Below are positions 11,090 to 24,166 of a DNA stretch of 27,956 nt, piece after piece. The notes beneath the pieces are model-generated. The model did not search any database, was not told where the DNA came from, and saw only the letters and a program-made list of their open reading frames with translations. The DNA is from a virus: positions 1 to 27,956 of the IMG/VR virus record IMGVR_UViG_3300030329_003190; one strand, written 5' to 3'. Every line of letters starts with the position of its first letter. The stretch's first letter is position 1. The position numbers were made by a program, and so were the translations under genes.

Positions 11090-12097
11090 ATGACATATCA
11101 ACGAATTCAAACACCAAGATTTTATGTAGACACGATCAATTGGCTCGTATCAAGAGGGATTGCCTCCACCGAGTTTGATGTGCCCTCAGCGGGAGCCAAT
11201 TTAATTGACCACGATGCCACCCATGTTGACGAAGAACTTTTCGATATGAACCCTGCTAATCAAGTTATTTTTTCAACAAGTGATTCTTCAGCAACAAGAG
11301 CCGATCATGTTATGTTCGTTATTGATAAGCAGGTGACAGACATTCCGACAAATTTTGTGGCAGTGCTTAACCACAACATGGATTCAGCTTCTGGTAAATT
11401 TCGCATCGCTACGAGCACAAATAACATTACCGCCGCCGATCCCTCTGCTGTTGCCTGCACTTCAGTCTTGAATGCGGCTGATTCATCTGATATATTTACA
11501 CCCGCAACCGATGGCGATTCCATTGTTACATTGGATTCGGCTTCGAGTAGTCGATATATCGGCATTCAATTTGAGGGCGATTCTGACTTTAGCTCTTCCA
11601 ATGATTTGAAAATTGGCTGTATTCTCATTGGTGAGTATTTTGACATGCCTCTCGCTCCCGATCTTCAGGTCACAAGATCAGTGGCTTTCGGAAATGATAT
11701 TATGGAAACACCGGCAGGGAGAAGGTTTAGCCAAGCGAGATGGTTGGAGGGCAATCAATCTTCAACGACTCAATCAGGGCAACCGTTTAGAAATGCAACA
11801 ACACCCACAGCCCAAAGGTTCGGTGGCAGGATGAGTTATTCTATGAATTTCAGTTTTCTGAATGATGACGATTTAACAACGAGCAACATTGCAACGGACT
11901 CAAGTACAGATTCATTCTACAATATGGTTTGGAATCGGACAGGTGGCAGTCATCTTCCATTTGTGTTCACCCCAGATAAAAGTTCAACGACAGCGGGAGA
12001 TTATATTTTCGCTCGGTTCGGACAAGATGAATGGGCATCGCAACAAGTAGCGAGCAATGTTTTTTCCACATCGTTGTCGGTTATTGAGGAATTTTAG
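11090..12097 (+). CDS. Distal tail structural protein
   Basis: 335 aa, beginning immediately after the hub-like gene. It is beta-rich with several Ser/Thr/Asp runs (TDIPTNFVAVLNHNMDSASGKFRIATSTNN; LTTSNIATDSSTDSFYNMVWNRTGG). It has the 'VAVLNHN' and 'RYIGIQF' style strands found in minor tail proteins of marine siphoviruses. Residues 139-148 (ATDGDSIVTL) are encoded by a 32-bp stretch that is repeated exactly in an early gene at 17715. This is the last structural gene before a strong terminator at 12132. A receptor-facing or tail-tip role is likely but not demonstrated by any motif. Confidence 0.7.
   Translation: MTYQRIQTPRFYVDTINWLVSRGIASTEFDVPSAGANLIDHDATHVDEELFDMNPANQVIFSTSDSSATRADHVMFVIDKQVTDIPTNFVAVLNHNMDSASGKFRIATSTNNITAADPSAVACTSVLNAADSSDIFTPATDGDSIVTLDSASSSRYIGIQFEGDSDFSSSNDLKIGCILIGEYFDMPLAPDLQVTRSVAFGNDIMETPAGRRFSQARWLEGNQSSTTQSGQPFRNATTPTAQRFGGRMSYSMNFSFLNDDDLTTSNIATDSSTDSFYNMVWNRTGGSHLPFVFTPDKSSTTAGDYIFARFGQDEWASQQVASNVFSTSLSVIEEF
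11503..11534 (+). repeat. 32-bp exact repeat shared with the early gene at 17715
   Basis: All 32 bases (from CGCAACCGATGG to TTACATTGG) recur at 17715-17746. The flanks do not match on either side. Both copies are read in the same phase and give A-T-D-G-D-S-I-V-T-L. A match this long is not expected by chance in a genome this small. Confidence 0.9.
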
Positions 12098-12131: not shown

Positions 12132-12173
12132 AAAAGCCGTGTCATTCTTTCTCCTGATGCGGCTTTTGTTTTT
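12132..12173 (+). terminator. Strong intrinsic terminator closing the structural block
   Basis: AAAAGCCGTGTCA (12132-12144) pairs with TGATGCGGCTTTT (12155-12167): 13 pairs including two G-U wobbles, with a 10-nt loop. G and five Ts follow (12168-12173). It lies 35 nt after the last tail gene and separates late from early transcription. The A-run on the left could allow some function in the other direction. Confidence 0.82.
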
Positions 12174-12206: not shown

Positions 12207-12239
12207 AGCTTGACTTGTAACTGCTTTGAGTGTTAAGCT
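12207..12239 (+). promoter_or_regulatory. Dyad over a possible early promoter
   Basis: AGCTTGAC (12207-12214) and GTTAAGCT (12232-12239) form an 8-bp inverted repeat (one G-T) with a 17-nt spacer. The left arm contains TTGACT (12210-12215), a near-consensus -35 box. Sequence at -10 spacing (TTAAGC or TAAGCT) is a poor TATAAT. This is the first non-coding DNA after the structural terminator and precedes the early gene block. An early promoter with an operator, or an activator-dependent promoter, is plausible but not proven. Confidence 0.4.
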
Positions 12240-12245
12240 CTTGGA

Positions 12246-12324
12246 GCATGAATGATTTACGATTAAAAATCAACCCCGGCGAGAACGCCCTCTCCTTTCA
12301 TCATTCATGCAAGTTCTCGCCGGG
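12246..12324 (+). ncRNA. Interleaved inverted repeats: pseudoknot-like leader element
   Basis: There are two perfect inverted repeats in the order A-B-A'-B'. A is GCATGAATGAT (12246-12256) and pairs with ATCATTCATGC (12300-12310). B is CCCGGCGAGAAC (12275-12286) and pairs with GTTCTCGCCGGG (12313-12324). Loops are 18, 13 and 2 nt. This is the topology of an H-type pseudoknot, although with only 2 nt between A' and B' the two stems may alternate rather than coexist. B/B' is GC-rich and is followed by TGTTTCATTTT, so it could also end transcription. It lies just upstream of the first early ribosome binding site (GGAGG at 12336-12340). I do not recognise a known riboswitch family. Confidence 0.6.
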
Positions 12325-12347
12325 TGTTTCATTTTGGAGGAATTACA

Positions 12348-12395
12348 ATGAAACGCTACAACATGAAAAAGTACAGAACAACAAGGGCAGTATGA
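12348..12395 (+). CDS. 15-aa leader ORF of the early operon
   Basis: GGAGG (12336-12340) lies 7 nt before an ATG that opens MKRYNMKKYRTTRAV. Its TGA overlaps the next ATG as ATGA (12392-12395). The peptide is very basic, with three Tyr and seven Lys/Arg. It has the best ribosome binding site in this area while the following gene has none of its own, so it probably serves to load ribosomes that re-start at 12392. It may be part of a control device with the structured leader upstream. It could also be a true micro-protein. Confidence 0.5.
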   Translation: MKRYNMKKYRTTRAV

Positions 12396-12598
12396 AGAAA
12401 ATGAAGTGTGGCGTAAAACTAACGAAAAGACAGATGGCATCGCTCCGCTCAGAGTTCCCCAACATTGGACAGCGGATCGCTATAAAAGAAGCCTTTGGCT
12501 TGCCTATCTCTCGCGGGGAAAAATCATGGTTCACGAGGCAAGTAAACATAAAAGATGGATCGAGTAACAGTGAGCATCATGTCAGAAATAGACCTTGA
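12392..12598 (+). CDS. Small basic early protein, unknown
   Basis: 68 aa from the ATG overlapping the leader ORF stop; a second Met (12401) is a possible start. The frame stays open further upstream to 12230, but that part would read through both inverted repeats and is not credible as coding. The protein is Lys/Arg-rich with a helical centre (LTKRQMASLRSEFPNIGQRIAIKEAFGL). Its N-terminal half could be a small DNA-binding helix bundle. It ends inside the next gene. I recognise no family. Confidence 0.55.
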   Translation: MKKMKCGVKLTKRQMASLRSEFPNIGQRIAIKEAFGLPISRGEKSWFTRQVNIKDGSSNSEHHVRNRP

Positions 12599-13285: not shown

Positions 13286-13987
13286 ATGAGTGATTTGCAA
13301 ACGGTTAAGATAAATGGCAAGGACTATGTAATAAAAACGGTTAAGATAGGTGGCAAGGACTATGTAATGGTCGACGAGAGGCTTCGCATATTTCACGAAA
13401 TCTATCCAAACGGGTCGATCGAGACCACGGTAAACATAGAAACCGAGTTTCTCACCTACCTTGCAACAAAGTCTCAAGCTCCTGTTCTTGCAGTCAGGGC
13501 GGTGGTAACCCCAGACGTGAGTGTGCCTGAGAGGTTTTTCACGGGACACGCCTACGAAGTAGAGGGGTCGACTTTTATCAATGATGGGTCGGCTCTCGAA
13601 AACTGTGAAACGTCAGCGGTCGGAAGGGCGTTGGCAATGCTTAATATCGGACTGATCGGTGACGTTGCGTCGTTTGATGAGGTGGCTAACGCACAAGCCA
13701 ATAAAGCAAAACCAATACACCATGAGCATCCAAACGGTGCGGCCCTTACTGATGAAGAATGGAAATCACAGCGAAACAATGTGGCGTTTACGGGTGGTAA
13801 GAACGCAGGCCTTGCTTGGTGCGATCTTAGCAATGATGTGGTTAAGTGGGCTTCTGAACAACATAAATCAGAAGAGAAGAAAATGATGGCACGAATGGAA
13901 ATGGACTACCGTGCTTTCACCAATTCGTCTGAGGGGGAATCAAACCCTCTGTCGGAAAGCCCGGTCGATAATGAGTTGCCATTTTAG
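13286..13987 (+). CDS. Single-strand annealing-type recombination protein with SSB-like tail
   Basis: 233 aa with GGGGGA before the ATG. The core (about 26-125) carries the pattern YVMVDERLRIFHEIYPNGSIET...FFTGHAYEVEGSTFINDGSALENCETSAVGRALAMLNIG. This is common to phage proteins annotated as Rad52/Sak-like annealing proteins or ssDNA-binding proteins. A following region (AFTGGKNAGLAWCDLSNDVVKWASEQ) resembles the small DUF3820-type motif. The protein ends D-N-E-L-P-F, like the acidic C-terminal tip of SSB that recruits replication partners. The N-terminus has a tandem duplication (TVKINGKDYVIK then TVKIGGKDYVMV). It probably promotes strand annealing in phage replication or recombination. Confidence 0.75.
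   Translation: MSDLQTVKINGKDYVIKTVKIGGKDYVMVDERLRIFHEIYPNGSIETTVNIETEFLTYLATKSQAPVLAVRAVVTPDVSVPERFFTGHAYEVEGSTFINDGSALENCETSAVGRALAMLNIGLIGDVASFDEVANAQANKAKPIHHEHPNGAALTDEEWKSQRNNVAFTGGKNAGLAWCDLSNDVVKWASEQHKSEEKKMMARMEMDYRAFTNSSEGESNPLSESPVDNELPF
13301..13372 (+). repeat. 36-bp tandem duplication in the annealing-protein gene
   Basis: Two copies start at 13301 and 13337. The first 33 bases match at 31 positions. The length is a multiple of three, so the frame is kept and residues 6-17 and 18-29 are near copies. The second copy joins smoothly to the conserved core, so the first is probably the added one. Confidence 0.9.
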
Positions 13988-22821: not shown

Positions 22822-24166
22822 ATGGCAGAAGTAACATTAACGACTGCGGCCAACTTTAAATAATTGGAGTTGTAAAACCTTGCTATATGCTGGAAACCCC
22901 TTAGAGCCAAACATACCGACTACCAAGTTATCAGGTGAAAATTGTTTGGATTGGGCAATCAGCAGGGAAGTGGTGGTTCACCCCTCAACGACTACACGCA
23001 GGGCGTTCATTGAACGAAGATATAGTCTGTTCTTATGTGAGAGCATAAGAAGTAATTAGAAATAATTACTCGCCTTAAAGTTTAAGGTCACAAAAGTAAC
23101 AGAAAGATCCCAGAAATGTGGGCCGACGGAATCCTTGATTACGCTGAGAGACAATTTCAGCTCAGGAATCAAGTAACTGACCTGTCAAGCATGGTCTCAG
23201 CAGGTGGCGACACCATCCACGTTCCGAAAGTAACTGAAGAGACTGCGGCTTCTTTAAGCTCTGGCTCGGCTGTCACTTACGGTGCAAATACCGATGGTAA
23301 AGTTGACCTCTCTGTTGACCAACACGCTTACGAAGCAAAACGCATAGGCGATAAACAAGAAAATGTTGCCTCTAAATTTGGCTATATCGGTGGAACTCTA
23401 AGTGCATACGCATAAGACAATACCGAGGAAAGACTGCATGATTGCAGAATCCGTAGAGACTAATACGCCAAACACCCATCGGGTGAAGATAGAGTCCGAA
23501 CTGCATAGAAATATGCAGAGGGGAAGATGTGAACGATTCCCCCGCCTGATTCATCAGGTCATTAACAAAGTAACAGAATTGATCGTAAAGGTTCAGGAAA
23601 ATGCTGACCTCTTCAATATGTATGCCAAGAGCATGGGCTACTCCATAGCCAAGTTCATTGAAAACTACATTGCTGTTTCAGTGCTTCAAGCGGCTACCGG
23701 GAACGACGTAACGCTCAGTGCAGATAACACATTCACAACCGCTCTTCTCAGAAGTGCTTTACAGAAGTTCCTCGATGCGGGACATTCATACACAGATGGA
23801 GATGCTTTCTTGTATTGCTCCCCTGCAAGTTATATGAGTGCCTTGTCTTTGCAGGACTTCTACGATGCTTCCAGAAGAGGCGATGGTGTTGGCCCAGTTG
23901 CAAGCGGTTCTGTTGGAATGGTATATGGTGTTCCAACTTTCGTTAGCACAGACTGGGATGACGATGGCGGTACCGGAGACGAGACGGCCAGTTTATTCAA
24001 ACGAGAAGCGGTTTACTTCGCACAGCAGATCAGCCCAAGAGTGCAGTCAAGTTACGACATAGACTACCTCAGCACTTCAATAGTTGCCGATGTGGTTTTC
24101 GGAGCTTGTCTGAGTCATGGTGCTTCAAGCACATCGTGTGCAGTGGCAAACTTCAACAATCCATAA
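22822..24166 (+). CDS. Major capsid protein, split by two group I introns (join 22822-22857, 23107-23352, 23582-24166)
   Basis: After removal of both introns the frame is 867 nt and encodes 288 aa. Exon 1 (12 codons) is MAEVTLTTAANF; exon 2 (82 codons) starts IPEMWADGILDYAERQF and ends YEAKRIGD; exon 3 (194 codons plus stop) starts IVKVQENADLFNMYAKSMGY. Both joins fall between codons and restore the sequence expected for this type of coat protein (AANFIPEMWAD; KRIGDIVKVQENADLF). Without splicing, translation would stop at TAA 22861 after 13 residues. The gene follows the scaffold and has AGGA before the ATG. Identification as coat protein rests on order and on the sequence style of marine phage capsids. 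Splicing is inferred from sequence, not shown. Confidence 0.88.
22858..23106 (+). ncRNA. Group I intron 1 in the capsid gene (249 nt)
   Basis: The 5' splice site follows a U (TTT at 22855-22857) and the intron ends in G (23106). P1: exon CAACTTT (22851-22857) pairs with the guide GGAGTTG (22866-22872), ending in the required U-G pair. The core has a Q-like CAATCAGCAGG (about 22957), an R-like CTCAACGACTACACG (22984-22998), P8 CGTTC/GAACG (23004-23008/23012-23016), and the S-type AAGATATAGTCT (23017-23028) with GACTA/TAGTC as P7. P9 helices follow: TTCTTATG/CATAAGAA (23030-23037/23044-23051), then AGTAATTA/TAATTACT. There is no homing endonuclease ORF. The length is a multiple of three but contains stops. 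Confidence 0.9.
23353..23581 (+). ncRNA. Group I intron 2 in the capsid gene (229 nt)
   Basis: The 5' splice site follows a U (GAT, 23350-23352) and the intron ends in G (23581). P1: exon AGGCGAT (23346-23352) pairs with the guide GTTGCCT (23365-23371), with a terminal U-G. The core has GTAGAGACTAATACG (R-like, 23453-23467), P8 CACCC/GGGTG (23473-23477/23481-23485), the S-type AAGATAGAGTCC (23486-23497) and a P9 hairpin CTGCAT/ATGCAG (23501-23506/23513-23518). Near the 3' end it shares AGGTCA and AAAGTAACAGAA (23556-23561 and 23567-23578) with intron 1 (23085-23090 and 23093-23104). No endonuclease ORF is present. Confidence 0.9.

Follow-up and report, generated by a model that had tools for sequence, protein, structure and literature searches.

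What do two interleaved inverted repeats do at the junction between the late and early genes of this virus, and do they act as DNA or as RNA? The window, by which we mean the whole 27,956-nt viral record analysed here, includes genes for a terminase, an endolysin and a helicase loader. As the preliminary description had reported, and with exact coordinates, two perfect repeats of 11 and 12 bp are arranged A-B-A'-B', with a terminator upstream and an early ribosome binding site (RBS) downstream. All features are given on the plus strand. Arm A (12246-12256, GCATGAATGAT) is the 5'-terminal helix strand and contains a start codon, ATG 12248-12250. It pairs at 11/11 positions with arm A' (12300-12310, ATCATTCATGC), the complement of the leader start region. 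Arm B (12275-12286, CCCGGCGAGAAC) pairs at 12/12 positions with arm B' (12313-12324, GTTCTCGCCGGG). Loop L1 (12257-12274, 18 nt) is A-rich, and its composition over all members of the class described below is 54% A and 3% G. The AAC at its 3' end (12272-12274) pairs with 12326-12328, which lengthens helix B by three pairs beyond a 1-nt bulge (T12325). Loop L2 (12287-12299, 13 nt) is pyrimidine-rich in the window, where the spacer L3 between A' and B' is 2 nt long (12311-12312).

The element follows a tail gene (11090-12097) and the intrinsic terminator of the upstream (late) operon (12132-12173), itself an inverted repeat with stem 12132-12144/12155-12167 and a T tail. Comparable terminators lie upstream of the element in many relatives. 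A sigma70-like promoter is predicted at 12210-12239, with a -35 hexamer TTGACT (12210-12215), an 18-nt spacer and a -10 hexamer TAAGCT (12234-12239), and the predicted +1 is at about 12246. Downstream of the element, a Shine-Dalgarno sequence (SD) GGAGG (12336-12340) and an ATG at 12348 (together 12336-12350) mark the start of a 15-aa ORF (12348-12395, MKRYNMKKYRTTRAV). Its stop overlaps the ATG at 12392 of an early ORF of 68 aa (12392-12598), for which no family was found. The transcript is labelled early on the basis of its gene content.

The arrangement had been called very unlikely by chance. Among 200 Markov-shuffled windows, two (1%) contain interleaved perfect repeats that reach 10 bp or more in a span of 100 nt; the 11 + 12 combination is rarer, though not astronomically so, and the shuffling is suggestive but no proof. 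The proof of a non-chance origin comes from homologues. Related marine phage contigs were reached via the neighbouring tail protein, and the portal and a 740-aa protein added further contigs. The early protein at 13286-13984, tried as an anchor, recovered no relatives, and the tail protein had none among host genome contigs. Named phages gave no match in tblastn searches with three structural proteins or in a blastn search with the leader, and the best match of TerL to named phages is about 33%. Several of the relatives carry interleaved repeats at the same place with quite different sequence.

Both strands of all collected loci were scanned for A-B-A'-B' helices, with G-U pairs allowed and no further condition. 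In 2.14 Mb, every hit with a stem energy of -40 kcal/mol or lower is the leader element (8 distinct sequences), on the coding strand and with an SD and start codon downstream in all; the best hit in two shuffled sets reaches -35.8. L080, L082 and L084 score lower, yet are clear homologues, and the first member set thus comprises 11 elements. A wider scan extended the A'-B' spacer to 14 nt and required a promoter-like -10 and an SD, without any reading-frame condition. It returned 32 candidates, of which the 24 with E <= -36.2 plus L082 (-32.9) make up one consistent class of 25 distinct sequences, whereas two shuffled sets gave three hits in total (best -37.8). Altogether, about 2.1-2.3 Mb of related marine phage DNA contains 25 distinct copies, all on the coding strand, that fall into 11-15 clusters by identity; identical elements are counted once, and the counts take in overlapping loci of the same contigs. 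Shuffles at matched composition rule out a chance origin. Phages whose contigs were scanned in full carry a single copy each, and a strict scan of 13 stretches from eight relatives, and of the window, found no second copy elsewhere.

The helices are interleaved in all members, and the relatives bear out the earlier view of a pseudoknot topology that acts in the early leader at the RNA level. Seven members with a longer spacer (type 2) align without gaps across the element in an alignment built without reference to structure. Nine of its 24 pairs, four in helix A and five in helix B, are changed on both sides, compared with 2.6 expected from shuffles, none of which (0/500) scored as high. Paired cells amount to 90.5% versus 29-43% with the partners slid; as members were picked by stem energy, pairing percentages over the 25 members are partly by construction, and the controls free of that selection are the shuffles, the slid alignments and features unused in selection (the ATG, the open frame and the coupling). 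The same compensatory pattern is evident by eye in L026/L172, L056/L137 and L080/L082/L084. These comparisons show that both helices are under selection: compensatory changes preserve the pairing as the sequences diverge. Such changes were the check that the preliminary description had put forward, with their absence to count against the idea, and the relatives have them.

The two helices were also suspected of competing, given the 2-nt gap between A' and B'. This suggestion finds no support, as the bases of A/A' and B/B' are disjoint in every member, the spacer ranges from 0 to 9 nt over all members, and L1 is long enough to span both helices in 23/25 by an idealised A-form estimate that makes no claim to detail. 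Nested folding usually picks the B stem, with A and A' staying free to pair. The idea of a coaxial stack, which arose from an L3 of 0-2 nt, is weakened by members with an L3 of 4-9 nt.

Rfam 15, which includes the SAM-II, preQ1, STAXI, manA and wcaG motifs, gave no match at gathering score for the window element and 14 relatives, an absence that weighs less for pseudoknots because many Rfam models omit pseudoknot pairs. The one hit from a permissive Rfam search of the window region, to a snoRNA, was at chance level (E 1.3). Searches of open PubMed Central text turned up no account of an element like this one. It appears to be an undescribed structured RNA of marine phages, with comparative evidence strongly in its favour.

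The position of the promoter places arm A at the predicted 5' end of the transcript. In the 11 unfiltered members, the promoter score peaks exactly at the start of the A arm (sum 139 versus 82 +/- 13 at random offsets, 0/3000), and arm A begins at the predicted +1 to +3. The -10 of the window is weak (3/6), and the start prediction is weakest in the window itself. Over the 25 members, the -10-like hexamer ends 4-10 nt before the ATG; the -10 and the SD were used to select this wider set, and both features are to be judged on the first 11 only. This spacing predicts that the ATG of the A arm lies at or within a few nucleotides of +1. There is no properly spaced SD at the predicted 5' ATG, and the leader ORF would be leaderless. 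In this it would resemble leaderless mRNAs such as lambda cI, its AUG lying close to the predicted 5' end, or at it, and lacking a usable SD. Ribosomes bind an AUG at or near the 5' end as 70S particles, and structure around the AUG lowers leaderless translation (PMC9031893). Typical leaderless mRNAs, unlike the leader described here, are not closed by a pseudoknot.

The preliminary description had overlooked that ATG 12248, within A, opens an uninterrupted frame across the whole element. An ATG occurs in every A arm or at the base just before it, and lies at -2 to +5 of the A arm in all 24 members with E <= -36.2 and in L082. In 25/25 members, the frame that this ATG opens runs without a stop as far as the end of B'. 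Across the element, the 25 members have 0 stops in the ATG frame versus 68 and 61 in the other frames, the count for frame +1 being raised by frequent ATGA. Among the first 11 members, for which neither a promoter nor an ORF filter was applied, the ATG frame is open in all, and the other frames contain several stops. The independent-shuffle product for 11 open frames is 4e-7, with the true figure weakened by relatedness.

The leader frame is also tied to the gene that follows. It is fused in frame with the next gene in 12 of the 25 members and stops no more than 14 nt from its start in another 12. The leader ORF of the window (12248-12598), which starts in arm A, overlaps the 15-aa ORF in a different frame and is in frame with the second ORF at 12392, with which it fuses to give 116 aa if read through. 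The distance from ATG to ATG is 95-119 nt, with a standard deviation of 7.7 versus 13 predicted from the parts (p 0.005, 17 representatives). Overlapping stop-start pairs are translationally coupled (PMC6728339). The members combine the features expected of a translated leader ORF, namely a conserved start codon, an open frame, and a stop or fusion at the next gene. With a pN/pS of 0.92 in the seven alignable members, the leader peptide shows no sign of purifying selection on its amino acids and is not conserved. Since the frame is always open and coupled while the peptide drifts, these sequences suggest that the act of translation, rather than its product, is kept.

From the helices, the frame and the coupling geometry, all of which come from the comparison of relatives, we infer a mechanism of leaderless entry, a race and an effect on expression. 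We propose, giving it somewhat less than an even chance, that the 5'-terminal pseudoknot closes off the start codon from which a leaderless leader ORF would be read, and that a ribosome can enter at the 5' end or the RNA can fold, but not both. The element would be a cis-acting two-helix pseudoknot at the 5' end of the early transcript, built into the leader reading frame. The 5' AUG would emerge first, and a 70S ribosome could bind it in leaderless fashion until A' follows about 65-85 nt later. As structure lowers 70S entry, this delay would set up a race between ribosome binding and folding. If no ribosome has bound, A would pair with A' and B with B'. The start codon lies inside helix A in the folded pseudoknot; the 5' start would be closed, the 5' end buried and the downstream SD start the only remaining entry. 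A bound ribosome, on the other hand, would unfold the element while moving and deliver translation to the early gene. Because the pseudoknot and 5' entry would exclude each other, the element may set which start is used and how much of the early gene is made.

A more specific version of this proposal is a co-transcriptional selector of ribosome entry. Here a pseudoknot that is also coding sequence, placed exactly at the 5' end of phage early mRNAs, would make leaderless entry at the 5' AUG and SD entry at the next start exclude each other. Arm A' would act as a movable anti-start strand, able in some phages to close the downstream RBS as well. We consider this version possible but less likely than not. 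Several points speak against start-codon sequestration. The -10 of the window is weak. The downstream SD lies outside the structure, and the gain from closing the 5' start is unexplained in some members. Moreover, even in members with a leader frame fused to the gene the peptide shows no conservation, and an open frame with an unconserved peptide could serve another purpose.

Among the alternatives, protection of the 5' end survives best, although we judge it unlikely. Here the 5' end would sit in a two-helix stack, out of reach of pyrophosphohydrolase and of 5'-end-dependent RNases, and the mRNA would be stabilised. Purified RppH of B. subtilis needs at least two unpaired 5' nucleotides (PMC3997798), and the start of A at the predicted +1 to +3 fits this reading. 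The L3 of 0-2 nt in 11 members fits it as well, as does the idealised geometry that permits both helices together, whereas the 4-9 nt of the other 14 members do not. A plain 5' hairpin would suffice as a shield, and shielding gives no account of the frame that is open in 25/25 or of its run into the next gene. Protection is not exclusive of start-codon sequestration, with which it is compatible.

It is less likely still that the pseudoknot is a translational operator, bound by a protein of phage or host origin that turns the early gene down or up. The pseudoknot lies 15-31 nt upstream of the downstream start codon, and gp32 provides a precedent on T4 gene 32 mRNA, whose leader likewise has a pseudoknot, with coaxial stems, ahead of the RBS (PMC3014915). 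However, the T4 pseudoknot is bound by the product of its own gene, whereas here the leader is an open frame followed by genes that vary between phages. Beyond the start codon, the arms have little sequence in common. In L004 and L005 the first gene has been swapped while the same leader is kept, which makes feedback by the first gene product unlikely; autoregulation of the gene 32 type is rejected on the same grounds.

Equally improbable is a two-state RNA switch, in which A' pairs with either A or the downstream RBS and exposure of the RBS depends on A being free. Summed over the 25 members, the A':RBS pairing reaches -226.8 versus -164.3 +/- 8.7 in shuffles, and it is strong in 9/25 (L026, L172, L127, L133, L166, L167, L116, L261 and L051). 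Yet it is absent in the window and most other members, and A:A' is more stable than A':RBS in every member. The A':RBS pairing may be a lineage-specific addition.

We regard a put-like antitermination RNA, a nascent structure that binds RNA polymerase so that terminators are read through, as very improbable. HK022 putL is similar in size and place, at about 73 nt just downstream of an early phage promoter, and the element is likewise a structured RNA of about 75 nt at the predicted extreme 5' end of an early phage transcript. In the description consulted (PMC9378689), put is built from two stem-loops that act on RNA polymerase, with no pseudoknot or ORF mentioned. The put arrangement is one of two nested stem-loops, whereas all members here are interleaved. 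An open reading frame is not expected of such an RNA, and a scan of the early region found no excess of terminators. Finally, the suggestion of paired operators or a recombination site, for which the window copy alone would qualify as two perfect inverted repeats, is hardly credible, since the arm sequences vary among relatives, 48/579 pairs (8%) over the 25 members are G-U, which is not favoured in a DNA palindrome, the strong hits are confined to the coding strand, and there is a single copy in each wholly scanned phage.

Start-codon sequestration has a partial parallel in the repY-repZ region of plasmid ColIb-P9 (IncI-alpha) and its relatives, where a short leader ORF is coupled to the next gene and a pseudoknot lies beside the RBS of that gene. 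The match is one of architecture only. In ColIb-P9 the pseudoknot is short and long-range and works together with an antisense RNA, and the RBS of the leader ORF is an ordinary one. References on this system are listed in PMC10724649. The pseudoknot described here, by comparison, is long, begins at the predicted 5' end and holds the leader start codon. The SAM-II riboswitch of Sinorhizobium metA shares the pseudoknot fold, and a single promoter there precedes two possible starts, AUG1 and AUG2 (PMC9373788). It differs in its ligand-binding core with conserved bases, and the element here lacks an Rfam match. The element would join leaderless initiation and pseudoknot leaders, usually studied apart, in one natural element. 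A fragment of about 130 bp is enough to clone it for reporter tests. If the mechanism is true, it shows how a phage can settle, while its first early message is being transcribed, the way in which ribosomes enter that message.

Several other features were seen along the way. Two group I introns (Rfam RF00028) lie near each other in the capsid gene region of the window, at 22847-23049 (78 bits) and 23319-23518 (66 bits). L004:1557 and L005:5348 have an identical leader, and the first gene differs immediately after ATGAAACTAAC, placing a module boundary at the leader. In the nine members with strong A':RBS pairing, arm A resembles the downstream RBS, and either can pair with A'. At L044:3970 and L042:4322, a 14-bp hairpin ends just before the possible start of a DNA methyltransferase-like ORF (MLDLFSGIGG). 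These start-codon hairpins were considered as closed-frame exceptions and left uncounted, as they lack a promoter-like -10 and precede a methyltransferase-like ORF.

A second, internal kind of element occurs at the next gene junction in L012:3302, L157:6102 and L027:8956 (the last read by eye). It begins with an ATG and a GAGGAAT-like arm that copies an SD; an anti-SD arm and a strong interleaved stem come next, and an open frame leads to the following SD. The principle is possibly the same, but with no promoter. At L030:7300-7375 and in its clade, a hairpin of another, nested kind (TGGACAGTGC...GCACTGTCCA) lies directly before an ATG, and L030 and L037 differ in it by apparently compensatory changes.
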